Part shown: piece after piece, positions 6,809 to 17,911 of the stretch
Layout of the letters: each line of letters begins with the position of its first letter
Position numbering within the stretch: the stretch's first letter is position 1
NCBI GenBank assembly: GCA_021791845.1
Contig: JAJYVT010000003.1
Coordinates: forward strand, 1 to 64,000
DNA from: Actinomycetes bacterium
GTDB lineage: Bacteria; Actinomycetota; Acidimicrobiia; Acidimicrobiales; RAAP-2
Length of the DNA stretch: 64,000 bases
Direction of reading: 5' to 3'
Program-made: the position numbers and the translations under genes
The notes under the pieces: generated by a model
The model's database searches: none
What the model was told of the DNA's origin: nothing
Seen by the model: only the letters and a program-made list of their open reading frames with translations

Positions 6809-8698
6809 GTGCCGGGAATGTCCCACCCGCTCCAGCTGGACAACCCGCTCATCGTGGCCGCCTTCCACCGGGCGCTCCTCCACCAGCTCCTGGTCGTGCT
6901 CGGCATCGGCGTCGTCCTGGCGGTGGCGTGGAACGTCGCCTTCGCCCTCTACGTGCGCCACGCGTCTCCGTCCGACGCGTCGACCGGCCCGGTCGGGGCC
7001 GCAGCCGGCATCGGGCCGGGCGCCGCCCGGGCCGCGAGGGCCGCTGCCGGGGGCGTGGCCGGGCCCGAGCCCCTGGCGCGCCGGTTGCTCCGCCTGGCCG
7101 TCGGGCTCCTCTGGCTCCTCGACGGGTTGCTCCAGCTCCAGAGCGGGATGCCATTGGGCATGCCCTCGGCCGTGGTGAAGCCGGCGGCCGCCGGCTCGCC
7201 CTCGTGGGTCCACGCCGTCGTCAACGTGGCCATCACGATCTGGTCGGACCATCCCGTCGAGGCGGCGGCGTCGCTGGTCTGGATCCAGCTCGGCATCGGG
7301 CTGGCCATCCTCCTCTCGCCGCGGGGACGCTGGTCGCGTGCCGCCGGTGCGGCGGGGGCCGCCTGGGCCGCCGCGGTCTGGGTCTTCGGCGAGGCCTTCG
7401 GCGGGATCTTCGGCCACGGGCTCAGCTGGCTCACCGGGGCCCCCGGCGCCGCCGTGTTCTACGCCGTCGCCGGCATCCTGCTGGCCCTTCCCGAGTCGGC
7501 CTGGCACGGGCGCCGGCTCGGACGTGCCGTCACCGCGGCCATGGGCGCCTTCTACCTCGGGATGGCCCTCCTGCAGGCATGGCCGGGTCGGGGGAGCTGG
7601 CACGGAGGATCCGGTGCCCACGCCGGGAACCTGGTGTCGATGGTCCATGCCATGGCCGGCACGCCGCAGCCCCGCCTGTTCGCCGGATGGATCGGGGCGT
7701 TCGCCAGCTTCGACGCCGCCCACGGATGGGGGATCAACCTCTTCGTTGTGGTGGCGCTGGCGGTGGTTGGCGCCGCCCTGCTCTCCGGACGCCGGCGGGC
7801 CGTCCTGGCGGGCGCGGCCGGAGCGGTGGCGCTCGGGCTGGCGACCTGGGTGCTGGTGCAGGACTTCGGGTTCTTCGGCGGCGTCGGGACCGACCCCAAC
7901 TCCATGCTGCCCCAGCTCGTGCTCGCAGCCGCGGGGGTGGCGGCGCTCGTGCGGGCCCCGGCAGCCGTCCCCGAGCCGGCGTTCGTGTCGGTGCGCGAGG
8001 TGGCCACCGCCGGCACGGCGCGGCGCTGGGAGGTGCTCACCCCGGCGGTGGTGGGACGGGCCGCGGCGGCGCTGGCGGCGCTGGCCGTGATCGGCGTGGG
8101 CGCCGTGCCGATGGCGGCGGCCTCCACCAACCCCAACGCCGACCCCATCGTGACCGAGGCGTTGAACGGGTCCGTGGACCAGGTGAACAGCCCCGCACCC
8201 GGGTTCACCCTGACCGACCAGGCCGGCAAGACGGTCAGCCTGGCCAGCCTGCGGGGGAAGGCCGTCGCCCTCACCTTCCTCGACCCGGTCTGCACCACGG
8301 ACTGCCCGCTCATCGCCCAGGCGTTCCGCCAGGCAGACGCCGGCCTCGGGAGCGAGGCGAGCCGCGCGGTGTTCGTCGCCATCGTGGCCAACCCCGTGTT
8401 CCACTCGATCGCCAACGTCGACGCCTTCGACCGCCAGGAGCACCTCACCGGCCTCCCGAACTGGCTCTACCTGACCGGGTCGCTCGAGGCGCTGACCAAG
8501 GTGTGGAACGCCTACGGGCTGCAGGTGTCGATCCTGCCTGCGGGCACGATGATCGCCCACTCCGACCTCGCCTACGTCATCGACGGGCGCGGCCGCATGC
8601 GGGCGGCGTTCGGGTCGCTGCCGGGGACAACAGCCGCGGGACGCTCCTCGCTGTCCACGCTGGTGGACCAAGAGCTTCGCCGAGTGATCGGGCAGTGA
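6809..8698 (+). CDS. Polytopic membrane protein fused to a SCO1/thioredoxin-like domain
   Basis: A 629-residue protein. The first 450 or so residues contain many hydrophobic segments and match no family I recognise. The last 175 residues form a SCO/peroxiredoxin-like fold that begins SPAPGFTLTDQAGKTVSLA. It carries the copper-binding CTTDCP motif (CxxxCP) and the distal His in IAHSDLAYVID. SCO proteins deliver copper to the CuA site of oxidase subunit II, usually from a single membrane anchor, so the large membrane region is unusual. The GTG at 6809 is preferred because GGGGAGG ends eight bases before it; an in-frame ATG at 6818 is the alternative. The stop overlaps the next start (GTGA). Likely role: oxidase copper assembly or redox sensing (inference). 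Confidence 0.75.
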   Translation: MPGMSHPLQLDNPLIVAAFHRALLHQLLVVLGIGVVLAVAWNVAFALYVRHASPSDASTGPVGAAAGIGPGAARAARAAAGGVAGPEPLARRLLRLAVGLLWLLDGLLQLQSGMPLGMPSAVVKPAAAGSPSWVHAVVNVAITIWSDHPVEAAASLVWIQLGIGLAILLSPRGRWSRAAGAAGAAWAAAVWVFGEAFGGIFGHGLSWLTGAPGAAVFYAVAGILLALPESAWHGRRLGRAVTAAMGAFYLGMALLQAWPGRGSWHGGSGAHAGNLVSMVHAMAGTPQPRLFAGWIGAFASFDAAHGWGINLFVVVALAVVGAALLSGRRRAVLAGAAGAVALGLATWVLVQDFGFFGGVGTDPNSMLPQLVLAAAGVAALVRAPAAVPEPAFVSVREVATAGTARRWEVLTPAVVGRAAAALAALAVIGVGAVPMAAASTNPNADPIVTEALNGSVDQVNSPAPGFTLTDQAGKTVSLASLRGKAVALTFLDPVCTTDCPLIAQAFRQADAGLGSEASRAVFVAIVANPVFHSIANVDAFDRQEHLTGLPNWLYLTGSLEALTKVWNAYGLQVSILPAGTMIAHSDLAYVIDGRGRMRAAFGSLPGTTAAGRSSLSTLVDQELRRVIGQ

Positions 8699-9978
8699 GG
8701 GGCAGGAGGGCCGGCGCCCGCCGGCGCGCCCTTCTGGCCGCGCTCGGAGCGGCGTGCGTCGCCGGCAGCGCCACCACGGCCGTGGCACCCGGGCCCGCGG
8801 GGGCCGCGCCGGACGCGGCGGCGTCGGGGATCGGCGCCACCTGGGCGACGGCGCAGGGCGCCTGGGCCGCGCTGCCCATGGGGCACCTGGCCTCGGCCAA
8901 CAACACGTTCTGGGAGCTGCTGTTCCGCCGCACGGGGACGACGCGCTGGACACTGGTGACGCCGCCCGGGGTGGCGACCAACGGCGGCGTCGTCGGGGCG
9001 GCCACACCGGCGGCCACAGGGGTCGTGACCGTCGGGATCCAGCCGGCCAAGTACCTGCGCTACTCGCCGGTCGCCCGCACGACCGACGGCGGGAAGCGCT
9101 GGCTGAGCGGCACGCTCCCCTCCGGCCTGGCACCGGTGGCCGACGCGATGGCCAGCGCGCCGGCGGGCACGGTGGTGGCGCTGGAGCGGGGCCGGGGCGG
9201 GACGCTCGTGCGCAGCGACGGCTCGCTCACACGCTGGACCACGATCGCCACCGGGCGCGCCCTGGCGGCGACGGCCGCCGGGCGGGCGTGCGGGCTCCGG
9301 GCGCTCAGCGCGGTGACGCTCGGCTCCGCCGGTCCGGAGGTGGGCGCAGACTGCACGAGGCCCGGGGTGGTCGGGCTGCTGGCCGACCAGGGGGGGAGCT
9401 GGGTGGCAGACGGGCCGCGCGTCGGGCAGGAGGCCGGAGCGACGATGCGCGTCCTGCGCCTCTCCACCGTGTCCTCGGTGACGGCGGCGGTGGTGGAGGC
9501 AAGGACCGGGCGTCGGACGTCGGTGCTCGCCCTCTGGCGCCGGGCCGGCCAGGCGTGGACGGTGTCGGCGCCCGTCCGCGTCGAAGGCGACCTGGTGTCG
9601 GCGGGCTTCGGGCCGGTCGCACCGGACGCCGCCGCCCCGACCGCCGCGACCACCTCGACCACCTCGGCCACCTCTGCCGGGTCCGGCGCGTCGGCAGCCT
9701 CCACGGGACCGGCGGTCGTCGTGGTCACGGCGACGCGCTCCGGACGGGTCGCCGTGCACGCGGTGCCGGGCCCAGGAGCCCGGTGGACCACGGTGGCGGC
9801 GCCGAAGGGAACGGAGGCGGTCGTCGGCCCCGGTGGACCGGCGGACGCCGGCGTCGGCGCCGGCACGACGGCGCTCTCGGTGTCGGGCAGCTGGGTCACC
9901 GTCTGGAGCCGGTCGGCGGGAGGGTGGCGGCGGGGGCCGCGGCTCGAGGTGCCGATCGAGTACGGCTCCTCGACATAG
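8695..9978 (+). CDS. Secreted protein with Asp-box (BNR-like) repeats
   Basis: A 427-residue protein starting at a GTG that overlaps the preceding stop. The N-terminus has a run of Arg followed by a hydrophobic stretch (ALLAALGAACVAGSA) and an Ala-rich region, consistent with export. One clear Asp-box occurs (TTDGGKRW), with weaker repeats such as RSDGSLTRW, suggesting a beta-propeller of the sialidase or photosystem-assembly type. A Thr/Ser/Ala linker near residues 315-335 separates a short C-terminal part. No catalytic signature is visible. Overlap with the SCO-fusion gene suggests a shared task in the periplasm-equivalent space. Function unknown. Confidence 0.7.
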   Translation: MRGRRAGARRRALLAALGAACVAGSATTAVAPGPAGAAPDAAASGIGATWATAQGAWAALPMGHLASANNTFWELLFRRTGTTRWTLVTPPGVATNGGVVGAATPAATGVVTVGIQPAKYLRYSPVARTTDGGKRWLSGTLPSGLAPVADAMASAPAGTVVALERGRGGTLVRSDGSLTRWTTIATGRALAATAAGRACGLRALSAVTLGSAGPEVGADCTRPGVVGLLADQGGSWVADGPRVGQEAGATMRVLRLSTVSSVTAAVVEARTGRRTSVLALWRRAGQAWTVSAPVRVEGDLVSAGFGPVAPDAAAPTAATTSTTSATSAGSGASAASTGPAVVVVTATRSGRVAVHAVPGPGARWTTVAAPKGTEAVVGPGGPADAGVGAGTTALSVSGSWVTVWSRSAGGWRRGPRLEVPIEYGSST

Positions 9979-10011: not shown

Positions 10012-10032
10012 CTCGAGGCGGGGGGAGTGGTG

Positions 10033-10926
10033 ATGGACGTGATCGGTCACTGGACCCTGGACCCGTTCGCCGTGATCGCCGTCGTGGCCGCCGTCGTGCA
10101 CGAGCTCGGATTGCAGCGCCTGATGGCCCGGGCGGCGCCGGCCCGTGCCCGCCGCCGGCGGCGGCGGTCGCTCCTGTTCTACGGGGGGCTGGTGGTCCTG
10201 GTCCTCGGGGTCGCGTCCCCCGTCGACTACTGGTCCTACCGGTACTTCTACGTCCACATGATCGAGCACATCCTGCTCATGTTCTTCGCCCCCATGCTCA
10301 TGGTGGCCGGCGCGCCCTGGATCCCCTTCGCCTTCGCCGTGCCGGTCGGGGTGCGGCGCCGGATCGGGCGAGCCGTCGCGCTCGGCCGGCGCACCGCCCC
10401 GCTCCGCCGAGCGTGGCGGACGGTGACGGCGCCGTGGACCGCGCTGGTCGTGTTCAACGCCGTGATGGTGTTCTGGCACGTCCCGGGGCCGTTCGACCTG
10501 GCGCAGCGGACACTGGCCGTCTACGTGTGGCTGATGCACGGCAGCTTCGTGGTGAGCGGGCTCCTGTTCTGGCTGCAGATCATCCCGTCGCGCCCGTTCC
10601 ACCGCCGGGGGTCCACGACCTGGCAGATGGGCGCCATCATCTCGAGCAACGTGGTGATGTTCGTGCTGGCGATGGCCATGAGCATCTTCACCAGCACCTC
10701 GTGGTACAGCGTGTACGCCCACGTGCCCGGCGTGTCGCTCTCGCCCTTCGCCGACCAGCAGATCGGTGCCGCCATCTTGTGGGTGTGCGGCGACTTCTGG
10801 GCCATCCCATCGTTGGTCTCGGTGATCCGCCGTGCGGTGGAGCAGGAGGGCAGCTTCTCCGAGGTCATGGAGGTGATCCTTGCCCGCAACCGGGGTTCTT
10901 TCGATCGGCCGACAATTGCACCGTGA
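10033..10926 (+). CDS. ctaG: Cytochrome c oxidase assembly factor, caa3-type CtaG family
   Basis: A membrane protein of about seven helices from the caa3_CtaG family, whose members are needed to assemble caa3-type oxidases, probably by handling copper. Conserved features include SYRYFYVHMIEHILLMFFAP with its paired His (HMIEH), FWHVPGPFD, and SWYSVYAHVPG near the end. The ATG at 10033 is preferred because GGGGGAG lies five bases upstream; a GTG at 10027 would overlap that sequence. The oxidase genes follow after a promoter-bearing gap of about 100 bases. A second, degenerate family member lies at the other end of the oxidase genes. Confidence 0.88.
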   Translation: MDVIGHWTLDPFAVIAVVAAVVHELGLQRLMARAAPARARRRRRRSLLFYGGLVVLVLGVASPVDYWSYRYFYVHMIEHILLMFFAPMLMVAGAPWIPFAFAVPVGVRRRIGRAVALGRRTAPLRRAWRTVTAPWTALVVFNAVMVFWHVPGPFDLAQRTLAVYVWLMHGSFVVSGLLFWLQIIPSRPFHRRGSTTWQMGAIISSNVVMFVLAMAMSIFTSTSWYSVYAHVPGVSLSPFADQQIGAAILWVCGDFWAIPSLVSVIRRAVEQEGSFSEVMEVILARNRGSFDRPTIAP

Positions 10927-10959: not shown

Positions 10960-10989
10960 TTGAAACGGGACAACCCGACTGTTTATGGT
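10960..10989 (+). promoter_or_regulatory. Candidate promoter for the oxidase genes (TTGAAA-N18-TATGGT)
   Basis: TTGAAA at 10960-10965 and TATGGT at 10984-10989 are separated by 18 bases in a locally AT-rich gap downstream of ctaG. Transcription would begin near 10996, leaving about 37 bases of leader before the TTG at 11033 and its AGGAGGGAGG. An in-frame ATG at 10985 falls inside the -10 element and is therefore unlikely to be the start. Confidence 0.5.
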
Positions 10990-11032: not shown

Positions 11033-11716
11033 TTGTCCCGATCAGGGCGGATAGCCATCGTGCTGGGACTGTTCGCGGTCGTGGCGTTCCTCGTCGTGTG
11101 GACGGCCATGTCCTTCGTAGCGACGGAACCGGCGACGGTGAGCTTCATCAAGGGGCACTCGCCGGGCGCCCCCGTCCATCTGGTCGCCCAGACGGACGGT
11201 GCCGTCGGCACAGGAGCCCATCCCACATGGGTCTCGTACCAAGTGGAGACACCGCAGTCGCGCAAGTGGGTGCACACCACGCTGTGGCAGCTCCCGGCCA
11301 ACACGCGGATCGACGTCACCATCTACCAGTTCGACTCGGGCAGCCCGCTGCGCAACCAGCAGTGGGGCAGGGTGACCGGCACGATCGGGAACTCGGCCAC
11401 GATCACAGGCACAACATTCCAGGTCGTCAACTCCTACCAGCACACAGTGGGGCACACGTTCACCGTGCCGACGCTCGGCATCAACGTCCCCTTGCGGGGC
11501 GTGGACACATCGAAGAAGGGCTTCTGCACATCGGGACCCTGCAATCCGAAGACGCAGTTGCACCACACCGTCACCTTCTCCTTCAAGACGCCCAAGCTGC
11601 CGGGGAACTACCGGTTCCAGTGCTTCATCCCGTGCGGAGCCGGGCACTACGCCGGTAACGGCGGGCCGATGCAGACCCTCGGGTACATGGGCGGGTTCCT
11701 CGAGGTGCAGGCATGA
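11033..11716 (+). CDS. Membrane-anchored cupredoxin with a CuA-like site
   Basis: A 227-residue protein with one N-terminal membrane segment (IAIVLGLFAVVAFLVVW) and an outward beta-rich domain resembling the C-terminal half of oxidase subunit II. GHTFTVPTLGINVPL aligns with the IHSFWxPxLGVK stretch of subunit II, and PGNYRFQCFIPCGAGHYAG with PGxYxxQCAELCGxxHxxM. The likely copper ligands are His (GHTF), two Cys (CFIPC), the following His and a displaced Met. The Glu between the cysteines is absent. The TTG at 11033 is chosen because AGGAGGGAGG precedes it by ten bases and a promoter covers the upstream ATG. It overlaps coxB by ATGA. It may be an electron-entry or accessory subunit, or a copper carrier. 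Confidence 0.75.
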   Translation: MSRSGRIAIVLGLFAVVAFLVVWTAMSFVATEPATVSFIKGHSPGAPVHLVAQTDGAVGTGAHPTWVSYQVETPQSRKWVHTTLWQLPANTRIDVTIYQFDSGSPLRNQQWGRVTGTIGNSATITGTTFQVVNSYQHTVGHTFTVPTLGINVPLRGVDTSKKGFCTSGPCNPKTQLHHTVTFSFKTPKLPGNYRFQCFIPCGAGHYAGNGGPMQTLGYMGGFLEVQA

Positions 11717-12729
11717 GCGATCGCGCAGGAGCTCCCGGCCGGCCCGCGGGCGCACACCCGCTGCAGGACATCCGCCGGATCTTCGCCATCTGGATCGCGC
11801 TGTCGATCGTCGGGGACCTGATCTTCTGGTTCGTCGCCGGGCCGCACGTCCCACCCGGGGACATGACGTCGTCGGCCAGCGGCGCGCAGTTCGACTTCAA
11901 CGTCCTGTTCATGGTGGCGCTCCCCGTCATCCTCGGGGTGTGGACGTACATGGGCTACGCGGTGCTGATGTGGCGGGCGTCGCGCCCGGGGGTCCCCGAC
12001 CCGGTCGGTGGCCCGCGGGCCCGGTCGAACCTGAAGGTGCAGCTGTGGTGGATCGTGCTCACCACCATCACCGTGCTCGGCATGTTCATCTTCGGGACGG
12101 TCGAGCTGATCGTGCCGGCCGGCGCCGGGGGCGCCGAGGGGCCGAACCCGATCTGGACCCCCACGTCGAAGACCATCCTGCCGGTCCAGGTGATCGCCCA
12201 GCAGTGGAAGTTCACCTACCGCTACCCGACCTTCGGCGGCATGGAGACCAACACGCTGGTCATCCCCGACAACACCACCATCGCCTTCCACGTCACCTCG
12301 CTGGACGTCATCCACAGCTTCTGGGCGTACCAGCTGGGGGTCAAGATCGACGCCAACCCCGGCGTCGACGACATCGGCTACACCACGACCAACCAGCTGG
12401 GCCGGTTCAGCGTCCGCTGCAACGAGCTGTGCGGCATCTGGCACGGGGCGATGTGGGACTTCGGCAAGGTCGTGACCAAGTCGCAGTTCATGCGATGGGG
12501 CGAGGCGACGGAGCGGGCCCACGCCGACAACACCAAGTACCTTCCCCCGTTCGCCTGGACCTACGTGCCGACAGCCAACACAACGACAGGCGTCACAGTC
12601 GCCAACACAAGCGGACAGGCCCCGTTCTCCAAGGTGCAGAAGTACGGCGCAACAACGTCGGCCAAGAAGACACTCAAGAACGTGGTGACAGCCACATCGA
12701 CAATCACAACAGGCGGCAGCACAGGATGA
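11713..12729 (+). CDS. coxB: Cytochrome c oxidase subunit II
   Basis: Accepts electrons through the binuclear CuA centre and passes them to subunit I. The 338-residue protein has two N-terminal membrane helices (about 20-40 and 60-82, with a third hydrophobic stretch near 115), then a cupredoxin domain. All CuA ligands are present: His in DVIHSFW, and Cys, Glu, Cys, His and Met in CNELCGIWHGAM. There is no C-terminal cytochrome c domain. The last 50 or so residues are a Thr-rich tail whose threonines are nearly all ACA, unlike the ACC/ACG used elsewhere. The start overlaps the cupredoxin stop as ATGA; coxA follows after 37 bases. Confidence 0.95.
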   Translation: MSDRAGAPGRPAGAHPLQDIRRIFAIWIALSIVGDLIFWFVAGPHVPPGDMTSSASGAQFDFNVLFMVALPVILGVWTYMGYAVLMWRASRPGVPDPVGGPRARSNLKVQLWWIVLTTITVLGMFIFGTVELIVPAGAGGAEGPNPIWTPTSKTILPVQVIAQQWKFTYRYPTFGGMETNTLVIPDNTTIAFHVTSLDVIHSFWAYQLGVKIDANPGVDDIGYTTTNQLGRFSVRCNELCGIWHGAMWDFGKVVTKSQFMRWGEATERAHADNTKYLPPFAWTYVPTANTTTGVTVANTSGQAPFSKVQKYGATTSAKKTLKNVVTATSTITTGGSTG

Positions 12730-12766: not shown

Positions 12767-14743
12767 ATGACGCTGGACGTCGCGCCTCCCTCGCAGGTCG
12801 GCAGCGCCGGCGGCGTTCGCCCGCCGGGTGGTGCTGCCATGCGCCGTCCCTCGTGGTTGGGCCAGCACATGGGCACGGGCATCGTGCTCGCCGTGGGAGG
12901 GTACGCCCTCGGGCACTACCTCGGCAACGTCATCGCCAGCGGCTACACCTACGTGGGGACAGCCGCCGAGAACGACGTCGCCATCGTGCTCGCCCTGGTG
13001 CTGGCGGTCGTCGGCTGGCTGCTCGGCGTGGGCGCGCTCAACTACCCGTTGGCCAAGCTGGCCGGCCGTGAGCCGGCAGCCCGCCCGGACGCGGACCACT
13101 GGACCAAGTACTTCCGCTTCAGCGTCGAGCACAAGACCGTCGGTCTGCAGTACCTGATCGCCGTCCTCGTCTTCCTGTTCACCGGCGGGTTGCTCGCCAT
13201 GTCCATCCGGACCGAGCTGCTCAGCCCCACCAACCACATCATCGGCCCCGGCACCTACATCTCGATCGTGGGTGAGCACGGCACGATCATGATGATGATG
13301 GCCTCGTCGCTCGTGGTGGGGCCGCTCGGCAACTGGCTGGTGCCGCTCATGATCGGGGCACGCCGGATGGCGTTCCCCCGGGTGGAGGCCTTCTCCTTCT
13401 GGCTGTTCTCCGCCGGCTACTTCGTCATCCTGACCGCCCTGCCCCTCGGCGGCTTCCCCACCGGCTGGACCGGTTACGCCCCGCTGCAGACGCAGGCGGA
13501 CGTGGGCATGGACTCATACCTGGTCGGCTTCTCGGTCATCGGCCTCGGCATGATCCTGGCCGGGTTCAACCTGCTGGTCACCATCATCAACTACCGGGCG
13601 CCCGGCATGACCTGGGGACGGTTGCCCGTGTTCGTCTGGTCCATCCTGGCCACGAGCGCCCTCCTCACCCTGGCCACGCCCACCCTGGCGGTTGCCTGCG
13701 TCTTCGGCATCCTGGACCGGACGGTCGGCACCTCGTTCTACGTGGCTGCCCACGGGGGCAGCTCGTACCTGTGGGAGAACCTGTTCTGGTTCTTCGGCCA
13801 TCCCGAGGTCTACATCATGGCGCTGCCCGGCTTCGGGATCGTGGGGGAGATGCTGCCGGTCTTCACCCGCAAGCCGCTGTTCGCCTACCGGGTTGCGGCG
13901 GCGGGCATGATCGGCGTGGCGCTGCTGTCGTTCTTCGTCTGGCAGCACCACCTCTTCCAGAGCGGCATCAACCCCGACATGCGCCCGCTCTTCATGCTCA
14001 CCACCGAGCTGATCTCGATCCCCACCGGGTTCATCTACCTCGTGGGCCTCGGGACGCTCTACAAGGCGAAGATACGGTTCGAGGTGCCGATGCTCTTCGC
14101 CTTGGCCATGTACTTCAACTTCCTCATCGGCGGCGTCACCGGCGTCTTCCTGTCCGACGTCCCCGTGGACGTGACCGTGCACGGCAGCTTCTTCGTGCTC
14201 GCGCACTTCCACTACACGATCATGGGCGGCCTCGTCTTCGCCTTCTTCGGAGGGGTCTACTACTGGACGCCCAAGATCACCGGGAAGTCGCTGAACAAGA
14301 CGCTGGCCAAGGCGCACTTCTGGGCGATGTTCGTCTTCTTCAACCTGACGTTCTTCCCGATGTTCCTGATCGGGCTGCTCGGCCAGCCACGCCGGGTCTT
14401 CGAGTACGCCCAGGGCCTCCAGACGCTCAACGACTTCTCGTCGGTCTCGGCATTCTGCCTGGGCGCCTCGTTCATCATCTTCGTGGTGAACTTCGTCTGG
14501 TCGATCTTCATCGCCCCGCAGGAAGCTCCCGCCAACCCGTGGGGCTCGCTCGGGCTCGAGTGGCAGACGGCGACGCCGGTGCCCCGGCACAACTTCGACC
14601 GCATCCCCGTCGTGATGGCCGACCCGTACCACTACAGTGAGCCGGACCCGCCACCAGTCGCTGACCTGGCGCCAACCAGCTTCGCCGAGATGGCGGCGGC
14701 CGGCGCCGACGGAGGGGGCGCAAGCAGGGGGGGTGACCGATGA
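12767..14743 (+). CDS. coxA: Cytochrome c oxidase subunit I (aa3-type) with unusual proton-channel residues
   Basis: Catalytic heme-copper subunit that reduces oxygen to water. All heme and CuB ligands are visible: VGEHGTIMMMM (heme a), WFFGHPEVY with the His-Tyr pair, WQHHLFQSG (CuB) and AHFHYTI (heme a3 and heme a). The core is preceded by an extension of about 115 residues with two extra hydrophobic segments. Several residues conserved in A-type oxidases are changed. GAPDMAFPRxNN reads GARRMAFPRVEA, so the D-channel Asp is lost. PTGIKVF reads PTGFIYL, so the K-channel Lys is lost. YHDTYYVVAHFHY reads VHGSFFVLAHFHY, so the Mg-site Asp is lost. The Glu of GHPEV remains. 658 residues; the stop overlaps coxC (ATGA). 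Confidence 0.95.
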   Translation: MTLDVAPPSQVGSAGGVRPPGGAAMRRPSWLGQHMGTGIVLAVGGYALGHYLGNVIASGYTYVGTAAENDVAIVLALVLAVVGWLLGVGALNYPLAKLAGREPAARPDADHWTKYFRFSVEHKTVGLQYLIAVLVFLFTGGLLAMSIRTELLSPTNHIIGPGTYISIVGEHGTIMMMMASSLVVGPLGNWLVPLMIGARRMAFPRVEAFSFWLFSAGYFVILTALPLGGFPTGWTGYAPLQTQADVGMDSYLVGFSVIGLGMILAGFNLLVTIINYRAPGMTWGRLPVFVWSILATSALLTLATPTLAVACVFGILDRTVGTSFYVAAHGGSSYLWENLFWFFGHPEVYIMALPGFGIVGEMLPVFTRKPLFAYRVAAAGMIGVALLSFFVWQHHLFQSGINPDMRPLFMLTTELISIPTGFIYLVGLGTLYKAKIRFEVPMLFALAMYFNFLIGGVTGVFLSDVPVDVTVHGSFFVLAHFHYTIMGGLVFAFFGGVYYWTPKITGKSLNKTLAKAHFWAMFVFFNLTFFPMFLIGLLGQPRRVFEYAQGLQTLNDFSSVSAFCLGASFIIFVVNFVWSIFIAPQEAPANPWGSLGLEWQTATPVPRHNFDRIPVVMADPYHYSEPDPPPVADLAPTSFAEMAAAGADGGGASRGGDR

Positions 14744-15396
14744 GCCAGGTGCGCGTGCCAGCCGACTCCGGTTACGTCGCCACCCCCGAGGAGCTCGCGT
14801 ACGAGGCCAGGGCGGCCGAGAACGCGCTCTTCACGGCCAGCCGGGTCATGATCGGGATCTTCGCCTTCGCCTTCGCTGCGCTGGCGTTCGCCTACTTCTA
14901 CCTGCGCTCGACCAACAGCGCCGGCCTCTGGCGGCCGCACGACGTGACGGCGCCGGTGGCGACGGGCACCGCCATCATGGCGCTCGTGCTCGCGTCGACC
15001 GGGCTGCTCGCCTTCGGGCTGCGCCAGTTCCGGCGAAACGACACGCTCGACTGGGACGTCGCCGGATGGACGGCCGTGGCGAGCGGGCTCCTGGCGCTGG
15101 GGCTCCAGTGCTGGGAGCTCACGGACCTGCCGTTCTCGCCCTCCACGGGCGGCTACACCTCGGTGTTCATCGGCTGGGCGGTGATGGACATCATCCTGCT
15201 CGTGTCGGGGGTCTACTGGGCCGAGACGCTGCTGGCGAGGCACGCCCGCGTGCGCAAGGCGGCGACGGAGGACTCGCGGTCGGCGGGGTTCGCGAGCGCC
15301 CATTTCCGGGTGAACGTCGAATCGTGCACGTACTTCTGGGGCTTCATCGCCTTCGTGAGCGTGTTCTTCTGGGTCTTCTTCTACATCGCAGGTTGA
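14740..15396 (+). CDS. coxC: Cytochrome c oxidase subunit III
   Basis: Membrane subunit of the aa3-type oxidase, thought to stabilise subunit I and aid proton uptake. The 218-residue protein has five or more hydrophobic segments, starting with SRVMIGIFAFAFAALAFAYF, and conserved features of the family in CWELTDLPFSPSTGGYTSVF and in the C-terminal CTYFWGFIAFVSVFFWVFFY. Its start overlaps the coxA stop (ATGA), and a tiny membrane-protein gene follows after 12 bases. Confidence 0.9.
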   Translation: MSQVRVPADSGYVATPEELAYEARAAENALFTASRVMIGIFAFAFAALAFAYFYLRSTNSAGLWRPHDVTAPVATGTAIMALVLASTGLLAFGLRQFRRNDTLDWDVAGWTAVASGLLALGLQCWELTDLPFSPSTGGYTSVFIGWAVMDIILLVSGVYWAETLLARHARVRKAATEDSRSAGFASAHFRVNVESCTYFWGFIAFVSVFFWVFFYIAG

Positions 15397-15408: not shown

Positions 15409-15522
15409 GTGTTCGGGACTGACCAGTACATCGGGGCGCAGGTCCTCACGCTCGCGATCCCGCTGGGGGCCTTCCTTCTCGGGCTGCTGTGGCTGTTCTT
15501 CCAGCGTCGCCCGGACCACTAG
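15409..15522 (+). CDS. Small single-span membrane protein, candidate oxidase accessory subunit
   Basis: A 37-residue frame starts at a GTG preceded by AGGAG six bases upstream, 12 bases after the coxC stop. It encodes a short polar N-terminus (MFGTDQYIGAQ), one hydrophobic helix (VLTLAIPLGAFLLGLLWLFF) and a basic end (QRRPDH). Small single-helix proteins (subunit IV types, CcoQ) are regular companions of heme-copper oxidases, and position directly after subunit III fits. I recognise no sequence family. The good ribosome-binding site and hydrophobic codons argue that it is real. Confidence 0.6.
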   Translation: MFGTDQYIGAQVLTLAIPLGAFLLGLLWLFFQRRPDH

Positions 15523-16277
15523 GGGACGGCCCGGCCTCGCTGCTCTTCGAGCGCCTCCGACCGTGGGCGCTCGGGTTGGGAGCAGCACTCGTCGTGCTGG
15601 AGTTCGTGCCTCCCCTGTGGACGGAGAGCACGCGCTACGAGTACGTCCAGGCGATCCAGTTCTGCCTCGCCGCCTACGCCGTGCCGGCGTTGGTGGTGGT
15701 CGGGCGGCCCTGGGGGAGGTTGGGCGGAGCGGGAAGCCGGGGCCGGCTCTGGCGGCTCCTCGACCGGGTGGCCGAACGGCGGCTCCGCCACGCCAGCTTC
15801 GTCCGCGCCTTCGCCTTCGTGGCCGCTTTCGCCGCCCTGGTGATCCTGTGGCGCACGCCCGCCTGGACCGACGCCGTCGTGCGGGACCGGTGGCTCGTGC
15901 CGGTGGAGGTGGTGTCCCTGGCGGTGACCGGTGTGGGGCTGTGGCTCGAGATCCTGGCCTGCCCGCCGCTGCGCCCGCGGCTGCACCGGCCCTGGCGGGC
16001 GGTGGTGGCGGCACTGGCCATGTGGGCGACGTGGGTGATGGCGTTCTCCATCGGGTTCGCCCACGATTCGTGGTACCACGCCTTCGACCACGTGCGGACG
16101 GGCATCGGCGTGACGCTCGACCAGGAGATCGCCACGGGCATCCTCTGGCTGGCGGCCGTGGCCGCCTTTTTGCCCGCCATCTTCGCCGACCTGATGACCT
16201 GGCTCAGGAACGGTGACGATCCCGACGCCGAGCTGCGCAGGCTGGTGCGGGACGCGCGCCGCTCCGGGCGGGCGTGA
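15489..16277 (+). CDS. Second CtaG-like membrane protein, metal-site histidines lost
   Basis: A membrane protein of up to 262 residues that resembles the CtaG at 10033. ESTRYEYVQAIQFCLAAYAVP corresponds to WSYRYFYVHMIEHILLMFFAP, and SWYHAFDHV followed by DQEIATGILW corresponds to SWYSVYAHV followed by DQQIGAAILW. The paired His of the HMIEH motif are replaced (QAIQF), so copper binding there is doubtful. The start is uncertain. The GTG at 15489 lies inside the preceding small gene without a ribosome-binding site, and in-frame TTG (15576) or GTG (15594) starts are possible. It closes the plus-strand oxidase operon and faces the minus-strand genes across a 39-base gap. Confidence 0.7.
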   Translation: MAVLPASPGPLGDGPASLLFERLRPWALGLGAALVVLEFVPPLWTESTRYEYVQAIQFCLAAYAVPALVVVGRPWGRLGGAGSRGRLWRLLDRVAERRLRHASFVRAFAFVAAFAALVILWRTPAWTDAVVRDRWLVPVEVVSLAVTGVGLWLEILACPPLRPRLHRPWRAVVAALAMWATWVMAFSIGFAHDSWYHAFDHVRTGIGVTLDQEIATGILWLAAVAAFLPAIFADLMTWLRNGDDPDAELRRLVRDARRSGRA

Positions 16278-16316: not shown

Positions 16317-16997
16317 TCAGCCGAGCGGGGTGACCGGCAGGGAGGGGTCGGGGAGGTGGGCGCCCCCCAAGCTTCGCTCGGCGGCGGCAATGGCGCGGTC
16401 CGCCTTCGCTCGGTCCAGGCGCAGCAACCGCTCTTTGGCACGCAGGTCGCGGCGTGCCGAGACGTCGGTGGGGTGGGCGACGAGCTTCTGCATGTCGCTC
16501 ATGGCGGCGACGGCGTCCGAGGTCATCCAGACCTCCACGCTGGTGATCATGGCGCTCAGGTGGGGACCTGCCGGGCCGCTGGGCACTGTGAGTGTGCCCA
16601 GCGAGACGACGGCCTGGTTGGCGAACGAGCACGCCTGCTCGTTCTGCGAGAGGAGCGTGGGCACCTGGGACCGTTGGGCCGCGGTGAGGGTCCCGGCCTG
16701 TTGGCGGCCGTAGATCGTGTAGCTCTGGCGCACCGAGTACGTGCATGTGCGGATGTCGGCGTCGACCGCCTTCACCAGCGCGGTGGCCTCGGTGGTGAGC
16801 TCGGAGGTGGTGGCCTGGTGGGGGAGGTCGGCGACGACGGAGGCGCCGGCCACGACCGCCAGGACCACCACCACGAGCACCCAGGTCCGGCGGTACCAGG
16901 GTCGCTTGCCCGACGCCGGCTCGGAGAAGGAGTCGGGGATGGTCTCGGGCGTGAGGGGCGGCAGTGTCGTCCCTCGCGGCGTGAAGAAGGTGCTCAT
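16317..16997 (-). CDS. Membrane-anchored hypothetical protein
   Basis: A 226-residue protein. It has a Pro-rich N-terminus, one membrane helix (TWVLVVVVLAVVAGASVV, about residues 37-54) and an outward, mostly helical region containing two cysteines (RTCTYSVRQSYTIYG and NEQACSFANQAV). The charged C-terminal stretch with repeated Arg/Lys/Glu could form a coiled coil. I recognise no family. The ATG overlaps the stop of the SCO gene (ATGA), so the two are co-translated; a role beside SCO in oxidase assembly is possible but unproven. Confidence 0.7.
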   Translation of the reverse strand: MSTFFTPRGTTLPPLTPETIPDSFSEPASGKRPWYRRTWVLVVVVLAVVAGASVVADLPHQATTSELTTEATALVKAVDADIRTCTYSVRQSYTIYGRQQAGTLTAAQRSQVPTLLSQNEQACSFANQAVVSLGTLTVPSGPAGPHLSAMITSVEVWMTSDAVAAMSDMQKLVAHPTDVSARRDLRAKERLLRLDRAKADRAIAAAERSLGGAHLPDPSLPVTPLG

Positions 16998-17911
16998 GCG
17001 TCGGCCAGCTTTCGGGCGTAGTGGGCGATGCCGGTGGCGAATCGGGTGACCTCGGCCGCGGGCAGGGAGTACGTGCCGCCGGCGGACTCGTTGGCGAAGG
17101 GGGTGGCGGCCCAGGCGACCTTGCCTGCCGGCGAGATGAAGTACATGAGCTCGTTGTGGCTGACCGCTCGGGTGGCCCGGTCGGCGGTGATGGAGATGCC
17201 GTAGGTGGTCCACACCGGGTCGAGCTTCTTGACCGACCCGGTGAGGAAGCGGTAGTTGCGCAGCCCCCCGAGGGCGGTGCGGGCGAGGATGGCGGCGTCC
17301 CCGGGGGCGAGAGCGAGAGGGTCGGTGTTGACGGTCACGAATGTGACCGGCACGCGCGTCGCGCCCAGCATGGCGTCGGCCTGGGCCAGCTCCCGGGCCA
17401 GGACGGGGCAGATGTCGTTGCACGGAGCGTTGGCGAAGGAGAGCACGACCACGTGCCCCGCCAGGTGTGCCAGCGAGACAGGGGTCCGGGTGGCCGCGTT
17501 GGTGAGCGTGAAGCCGGCCGCGGCCGCGCCCTTCAACGTGCTGATCCCCATGAAGGCGGCGAGCGGCGCGTGCACCTGTGCCCCCGCTGTCGCCGCGCCC
17601 GTGTGGCTGGGGACGACGGGGCCGGCGTGGCCCGTCGGTGGCCGGTGCGGGACGGCTGGGGCAGGCGACGATGTGACGAGGTGGTCCGCCAGGGCACCGC
17701 CCACGCCGAGGACGAGGAGCACCGCGATCCCCCAGGCGATCACCCGGGGCGACATGCGCGGCGTGCCGGCGGCGAAGGCGGCCCTCCGGTCCTCGGCCGT
17801 GAGGCCGGCCCGGGACGGCGCCGGCTCCGCGGGTGCCGGCTCCGCCACCGCAGGCTCCACCGCCGGATCCGTCGGATCCGCCGGTGGCCGATCGGAGTGG
17901 CCGACGGTCAC
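16994..17911 (-). CDS. SCO1/SenC-type copper chaperone
   Basis: Delivers copper to, or reduces, the CuA centre of oxidase subunit II. The 305-residue protein has a long Pro/Ala-rich N-terminus, one membrane anchor (VIAWGIAVLLVLGVGGALA, about 57-75), and a thioredoxin-fold domain with the CxxxCP motif (CNDICP) and the distal His in VSHNELMYF. The GTG at 17911 is the furthest in-frame start; no clear ribosome-binding site or -10 box identifies it. It lies 54 bases downstream of ctaB and overlaps the following hypothetical gene by ATGA. Confidence 0.9.
   Translation of the reverse strand: MTVGHSDRPPADPTDPAVEPAVAEPAPAEPAPSRAGLTAEDRRAAFAAGTPRMSPRVIAWGIAVLLVLGVGGALADHLVTSSPAPAVPHRPPTGHAGPVVPSHTGAATAGAQVHAPLAAFMGISTLKGAAAAGFTLTNAATRTPVSLAHLAGHVVVLSFANAPCNDICPVLARELAQADAMLGATRVPVTFVTVNTDPLALAPGDAAILARTALGGLRNYRFLTGSVKKLDPVWTTYGISITADRATRAVSHNELMYFISPAGKVAWAATPFANESAGGTYSLPAAEVTRFATGIAHYARKLADA

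Follow-up and report, generated by a model that had tools for sequence, protein, structure and literature searches.

Why should an oxidase operon that encodes an intact CuA subunit carry, directly in front of it, a second gene for a CuA-like protein? The question is raised by a gene of an Acidimicrobiia bacterium (assembly GCA_021791845.1, contig JAJYVT010000003.1) that we call CUP, for cupredoxin gene. It lies on the forward strand at positions 11033-11716 of the window, which is the whole stretch of 64,000 nucleotides analysed here. A sequence-only reading of this DNA had described the product as a one-helix protein with an outward CuA-like domain, and had offered two roles for it, an electron-entry partner of the oxidase or a dedicated copper donor. 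Both are still the leading readings. The gene is identified by its open reading frame, an upstream purine-rich stretch, hydropathy, an AF2 model and alignments of 41 and 84 relatives. The proposed frame, which opens with TTG and encodes 227 amino acids, is confirmed: the purine-rich stretch AGGAGGGAGGG precedes the TTG, the family alignment begins at this codon, and one relative has a GTG start at the same site. An alternative in-frame ATG upstream, at 10985, would add 16 residues. Compared with an 84%-identical relative (L002), CUP differs at 31, 15 and 65 first, second and third codon positions, respectively; this bias, together with seven motif residues that are invariant among 84 divergent members, is more than would be expected by chance and shows the pattern of selection at the protein level.

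The encoded protein has one strong hydrophobic stretch (residues ~7-25), in agreement with the single N-terminal helix that had been proposed. The best 19-residue hydropathy, 2.75, begins at residue 7, and the AF2 model has a helix at residues 3-30; a transmembrane helix is therefore probable at residues 7-25 (11051-11107, forward strand). Across the family, the membrane anchor is either an N-terminal helix or a lipoprotein-type signal. Behind the helix, AF2 predicts a cupredoxin with a mean pLDDT of 87.9, and Foldseek matches the model to rusticyanin (the top match), subunit II of the ba3 oxidase and AcoP, so that the predicted outward cupredoxin domain holds. Confidence in the model is lowest at the copper loop, with pLDDT 53-64 for residues 201-220. 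A comparison of CUP with a viral fold library returned no meaningful match.

The operon is arranged in the order CtaG, CUP, coxB, coxA, probable subunit III and second CtaG, all on the forward strand. The first CtaG-type oxidase assembly protein (Caa3_CtaG, 10027-10926; PF09678, E 2e-42) also lies 5′ of CUP in many relatives. The gene coxB (subunit II, 11713-12729; PF00116, E 2e-14) begins within the end of CUP, and the reported ATGA overlap is real, with the TGA of CUP overlapping the coxB ATG at 11713. It was likewise correct that coxB has all of its CuA ligands (CNELCGIWHGAM), namely H201, C236, C240, H244 and M247, and the ligands are kept in all 19 coxB genes aligned. It is followed by coxA (subunit I, 12767-14743; PF00115, E 4e-130), by a gene that probably encodes subunit III (14740-15396), assigned by position and conserved adjacency and matching no Pfam or NCBIfam model, and by the second CtaG-type gene (15489-16277; PF09678, E 4e-17). 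We considered whether CUP might replace a CoxB that has lost CuA, and this was ruled out by the intact CuA of every neighbouring coxB. Upstream, a SCO1/SenC domain (PF02630, E 5e-10, residues 465-596) is fused behind a polytopic membrane domain of ~400 residues (6809-8698, forward strand). Downstream, a second SCO-like gene (16994-17911, reverse strand), identified by its conserved position and similarity across relatives, recurs behind the operon. A probable exported protein is encoded between the SCO fusion and CtaG, at ~8695-9978 of the forward strand.

To define the copper site, 85 distinct CUP members were gathered from public genomes, and 84 of these were alignable over the domain. Seven residues are invariant in all 84: His141, Cys197, Pro200, Cys201, Met213, Met219 and Gly221. 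Asp101 (11333-11335), of a YDSG motif, is present in 83. The cysteines of the window protein are at positions 165, 170, 197 and 201, and its methionines at 26, 213 and 219. According to the sequence-only reading, the segments GHTFTVPTLG and CFIPCGAGH correspond to the CuA motifs of subunit II. Both segments are present, and the alignment is upheld by a profile-profile comparison (hhalign) of the CUP family with the neighbouring coxB genes (E 9e-7), in which His141 (11453-11455) falls on the upstream CuA His and the two cysteines of the C-x2-P-C motif (Cys197-Phe-Ile-Pro200-Cys201, 11621-11635) fall on both CuA cysteines.

The C-terminal half of the site has fared differently. A conserved His2Cys2 site had been expected, with His205 (11645-11647) as its second His. 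This residue, eight positions past Cys197, is a His in only four of the 47 members linked to cox operons, namely the window protein and three relatives close to it; in the rest of that group the position is occupied by F, Y, W, V, R and other residues. On a tree built without this loop, the position shows two changes, a gain of His within a small clade and then a change from H to R in L003. The possibility that His205 is an ancestral CuA His retained in the window protein is ruled out by this tree, on which it is a recent gain. A clustered His2Cys2 set, the lack of which had been named beforehand as counting against a CuA-like site, is thus present in the window sequence taken alone, but it is not a property of the family. 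The CuA Met had been described as displaced. It is indeed absent from its normal position, 11 residues past the first Cys, but "displaced" does not describe what is found in its place, since two methionines are invariant (84/84). Met213 and Met219 (Met213-x5-Met219, 11669-11689) lie 16 and 22 residues past Cys197 and are probable thioether ligands. The distance of Met from the first Cys ranges from 8 to 17 across members, with a loop of variable length, and the spacing between the two methionines is six residues in all members but one, where it is five. The canonical pattern H-x34-C-x3-C-x3-H-x2-M is therefore not that of CUP, in which His occurs at +8 in four members and no Met occurs at +11.

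Is CUP, then, a relative of CuA or an ordinary blue copper protein? In single-sequence searches the window protein matched no model in Pfam or NCBIfam, including the rusticyanin model TIGR03095 and Cupredoxin_1 (PF13473) at their curated cut-offs, and phmmer against the PDB gave nothing of use except AcoP, matched weakly along 38 residues (E 0.32). The statement that the protein belongs to no named family is borne out in these libraries, so that automatic annotation based on them would leave CUP genes unnamed. Our literature searches returned nothing on this family in Acidimicrobiia. When 41 family members were searched, the NCBIfam CoxB model was matched by 18 (best E 2e-5), the most of any NCBIfam model, and the rusticyanin and NosZ models by four each; COX2 (PF00116) was matched by nine (best E 3e-4); neither of these two CuA-type models was matched above its curated cut-off. 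Strong matches confined to type-1 proteins, which had been named as evidence against a CuA relationship, are therefore not what was obtained.

The short-loop members of the family (clade A2) add to this picture. Their profile matches coxB with an hhalign E value of 4e-8, and among solved structures the CuA domain of nitrous-oxide reductase (NosZ) comes first (E 9e-11), with Cys aligned on Cys, His on His and the final Met on Met. The canonical CuA motif has a spacing of 34 residues between His and Cys (PMC6189053); His-x34-Cys is exact in 7 of 13 short-loop members and in 18 of 19 coxB genes, and the spacing in the cox-linked clade is H-x(51-69)-C. Because of the hhalign match to coxB, the match of A2 to NosZ and the exact spacing in these short forms, the sequence comparisons support common ancestry of the CUP domain with the CuA domain of COX2; together with the fold prediction, they support the description of CUP as a cupredoxin of CuA ancestry within a cox operon. 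An ordinary type-1 (blue or green) cupredoxin, akin to AcoP or rusticyanin, is what the Foldseek matches to rusticyanin and AcoP and the weak phmmer match to AcoP would suggest. However, 43 of the 47 cox-linked members have no His at C+8, between Cys and Met, the second Cys is invariant, and CoxB matches outnumber rusticyanin matches by 18/41 to 4/41. We disfavour this explanation and consider it highly improbable.

Among the short forms, 8 of 13 show the pattern C-x3-C-x4-M-x-H, with a His two residues past the first Met, which looks like a swap of the CuA His and Met; these occur in L031, L037, L042, L043, L053, L112 and L117. Judging from the alignment, the second His may thus still be present in some of them, unlike in the long forms. 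One short form (L045) passes the cut-off of Cupredoxin_1 (36.8 bits against 27), whereas the window protein does not match. Cupredoxin_1 is a broad Pfam family of unknown function. The fold of its Bacillus anthracis structure 4hcf is matched by the short-form model, whose mean pLDDT is 63, with the low confidence mostly outside the cupredoxin domain; its Foldseek list is taken as support only.

The family tree contains a cox-linked clade (n = 47, SH-aLRT 95), a long-loop clade (n = 24) and a short-loop clade (n = 13). The adjacency of CUP and coxB seen in the window recurs throughout the first of these: the survey of gene order in relatives placed a CuA-intact coxB directly 3′ of CUP in 47/47 members. 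In the reverse test, coxB was searched for across 296 genomes of the class, and CUP adjoins coxB on its upstream side at all 24 loci scoring at least 100 bits. CUP is absent beside the next-nearest coxB genes of that search (L147-L150 and L152); the lower-scoring match L151 is a contig fragment and was left out of this judgement. The family occurs in 32 of the 296 sampled genomes of the class and, outside it, in a few other Actinomycetota, with a cox operon in G526, G531 and G632. One further record (L004) is titled Acidobacteriota, although its operon and gene order are as in the Acidimicrobiia records, and it is probably a misassigned metagenome-assembled genome. A second cysteine pair, C165 and C170 (11525-11542), is found in many cox-linked long forms and is absent from the other clades; it is probably a disulfide within an insertion specific to the cox-linked long forms.

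Members of the long-loop and short-loop clades adjoin genes for an iron-sulphur protein of the 4Fe-4S type (Fer4_11, E 1.5e-18) and for a membrane protein of the NrfD family (E 3e-24 to 2e-30). These members are often in tandem and accompanied by two-component regulators, with no cox operon. A recurrent module in L042, L043, L045, L047, L053, L111 and L117 consists of two to four tandem CUP-family cupredoxins, the Fer4_11 iron-sulphur protein, NrfD and a DoxX-like membrane protein, and several of these modules include a sensor/response-regulator pair. The module might represent a quinone-linked complex for electron transfer, as yet uncharacterised, that has a copper outlet. We had labelled these non-cox loci "SCO-linked", and this label was rejected because, within the SCO fusion, the membrane domain and not the SCO domain had given the match; the neighbours are the Fe-S and NrfD proteins. 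That membrane domain ('LLDGLLQLQ...') recurs alone near Fe-S/NrfD-linked cupredoxins (L042:3714-4949 and L045:5502-7157) and thus accompanies the CUP family in both settings. A Pfam scan of it gave no convincing match (DUF6041, E 0.001 only).

An oxidase with an intact CuA needs a one-electron donor. In 13 of the 16 CUP-cox genomes checked, the only matches to PF00034 or PF13442 are two domains within one open reading frame of ~290-420 aa, an arrangement that we take for that of QcrC, the di-haem protein of actinobacterial bc complexes; G058, G531 and G632 have further cytochrome c genes. A second coxA is found elsewhere in most host genomes, often on the contig of the QcrC-like frame. The CUP-linked coxB genes that were examined have no CXXCH and no fused haem domain. 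Since the oxidase has an intact CuA, no free cytochrome c was detected with these two models in most hosts, and a membrane-anchored cupredoxin is encoded in front, we favour a role in electron transfer. Specifically, we consider it moderately probable that CUP is a membrane-anchored electron donor to the CuA of the adjacent CoxB, comparable in this to AcoP. CUP would carry electrons into the CuA of the oxidase encoded behind it and thereby take the role that a soluble cytochrome c has elsewhere. Electrons would pass from quinol through the bc complex with its di-haem QcrC, or from another periplasmic donor, to CUP, and from there through the CuA of CoxB and CoxA to O2. The site of CUP would be a remodelled CuA loop, in which His141 and the Cys197/Cys201 pair are kept, the C-terminal CuA His is lost, and Met213 and Met219 supply thioether ligands to one copper or two. 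We infer that CUP binds copper and is redox-active, that electrons flow in this direction and that CoxB is the partner.

The second His is a normal component of both type-1 and CuA electron-transfer sites, and a Cys2Met2His set without it is soft, as would suit a protein that carries Cu(I). Against the donor role speak the lack of a conserved second His, the soft ligands, the low confidence of the modelled copper loop, the further cytochrome c genes of G058, G531 and G632, and the nearby CtaG and SCO genes, which fit copper delivery equally well. The main rival explanation is that CUP is a chaperone for Cu(I), anchored in the membrane, which acts with SCO and CtaG to load the CuA of the adjacent CoxB. 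Such a function would explain why the family lacks the second His and yet keeps Cys2, Met2 and His invariant, and why there is one CUP per oxidase operon, adjoining CtaG and often SCO-type genes. It would also agree with the cupredoxin PmoD, whose two conserved cysteines can either form a disulfide or take part in an unusual copper site (PMC6189053). However, the tandem copies of the sister clades adjoin Fe-S/NrfD modules, at loci that encode no CuA client, ordinary CuA-intact coxB genes of the same class lack CUP, and the cluster already encodes SCO and CtaG. Because the sister clades occur in these electron-transfer settings, a carrier fits better than a loading factor for CuA, and we regard the chaperone as unlikely.

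Within the donor reading, the metal site itself could be a CuA-type centre in the full sense, dinuclear and mixed-valence, in which Met stands in for the C-terminal His, and could act as a second CuA relay in series with that of CoxB. This variant is compatible with the electron-donor explanation, and the CuA-lineage profile, the Cys-x3-Cys motif and the His-x34-Cys spacing agree with it. Met213 and Met219, however, lie 16 and 22 residues past C197 rather than 11, the loop geometry is not resolved in the AF2 model, and we know of no natural single-chain CuA that lacks the second His. PmoD does form CuA from a different set of Cys, Met and His (PMC6189053), and we view a dinuclear centre in CUP as doubtful. 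PmoD and AmoD resemble CUP in that they are membrane-anchored cupredoxins, have two conserved Cys and are encoded next to the copper enzyme that they serve, and the ligand set of PmoD is a non-canonical CuA (PMC6189053). Unlike CUP, PmoD has its site between two monomers and the motif Cx7MxHxnC (PMC6189053), which is absent from the window protein, where no Cys-x7-Met occurs. Finally, CUP might be a structural or stabilising subunit of the oxidase, with Cys197 and Cys201 in a disulfide and no need of copper. AcoP has been proposed to protect its oxidase in acid (PMC4059628), and monomeric PmoD has a disulfide between its conserved cysteines (PMC6189053). A disulfide alone, however, would leave H141, M213 and M219, invariant in three clades and two genomic settings, without explanation, and we consider a purely structural role quite improbable.

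The closest precedent for CUP is AcoP, the Acidophile Cytochrome c Oxidase Partner, which the sequence-only reading had missed. AcoP is a one-helix cupredoxin of iron-oxidising Acidithiobacillus; its gene is part of the cox cluster, and the protein co-purifies with the oxidase (PMC4059628, PMC5982212). In Acidithiobacillus ferrooxidans it receives electrons from cytochrome c4, a di-haem protein (PMC5982212). The two proteins share a single N-terminal helix, an outward cupredoxin domain and a gene in a cox cluster (PDB 7z3b, 7z3f, 7z3g and 7z3i; Foldseek E 9e-4), and a further likeness is the respiratory chain of an acidophile. The copper ligands of AcoP are H85 and C159-x6-H166-x4-M171 (PMC4059628). 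This pattern (H, C-x6-H-x4-M) is absent from the CUP alignment; CUP differs from AcoP in that its second Cys is invariant, a second His is not conserved, and its Met residues lie at +16 and +22. The CuA domain of CoxB (PF00116/TIGR02866) shares with CUP the cupredoxin fold, the upstream His and Cys-x3-Cys-Gly, whereas CUP has no conserved His at +8, no Met at +11, an H-to-C distance of 51-69 rather than 34, and one helix instead of two, and it adjoins a real CoxB. The CuA domain of NosZ, the best PDB sequence match of the short-loop clade, still has the second His as well as Met at +11, unlike CUP, which also lacks the catalytic domain of NosZ. CUP is most likely AcoP-like in role and yet falls outside the ligand definition of AcoP, and by its sequence it descends from the CuA lineage and yet falls outside the ligand definition of CuA.

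CuA ligands are usually regarded as nearly fixed. A large family that keeps the His and both Cys and has lost the second His for a pair of Met would show how the CuA loop can drift and what role that His plays. It would further account for the electron supply of a CuA-type oxidase in genomes without a detected free cytochrome c, and the concept of an oxidase-bound cupredoxin, known from AcoP, would be extended to another lineage whose copper site differs. A bolder version, which we offer as a tentative and rather improbable one, is that a CuA-type centre rebuilt with Met for His in a stand-alone, membrane-anchored cupredoxin has replaced cytochrome c as the obligate donor to a CuA oxidase, that the sister copies are the electron outlet (or inlet) of the Fe-S/NrfD quinone modules, and that Acidimicrobiia-like bacteria would thus have copper-only wiring.

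Two other cupredoxin genes were observed in the same genome. A short-loop paralogue of CUP (L107:3413-4273, reverse strand, contig C117) adjoins an apparent ECF sigma factor and anti-sigma factor. A rusticyanin-like protein (L110:5596-6399, forward strand, contig C148; TIGR03095, E 3.5e-20, below the cut-off) is encoded beside an apparent CopZ-like protein and a copper-type P-ATPase, which suggests copper handling rather than iron oxidation.
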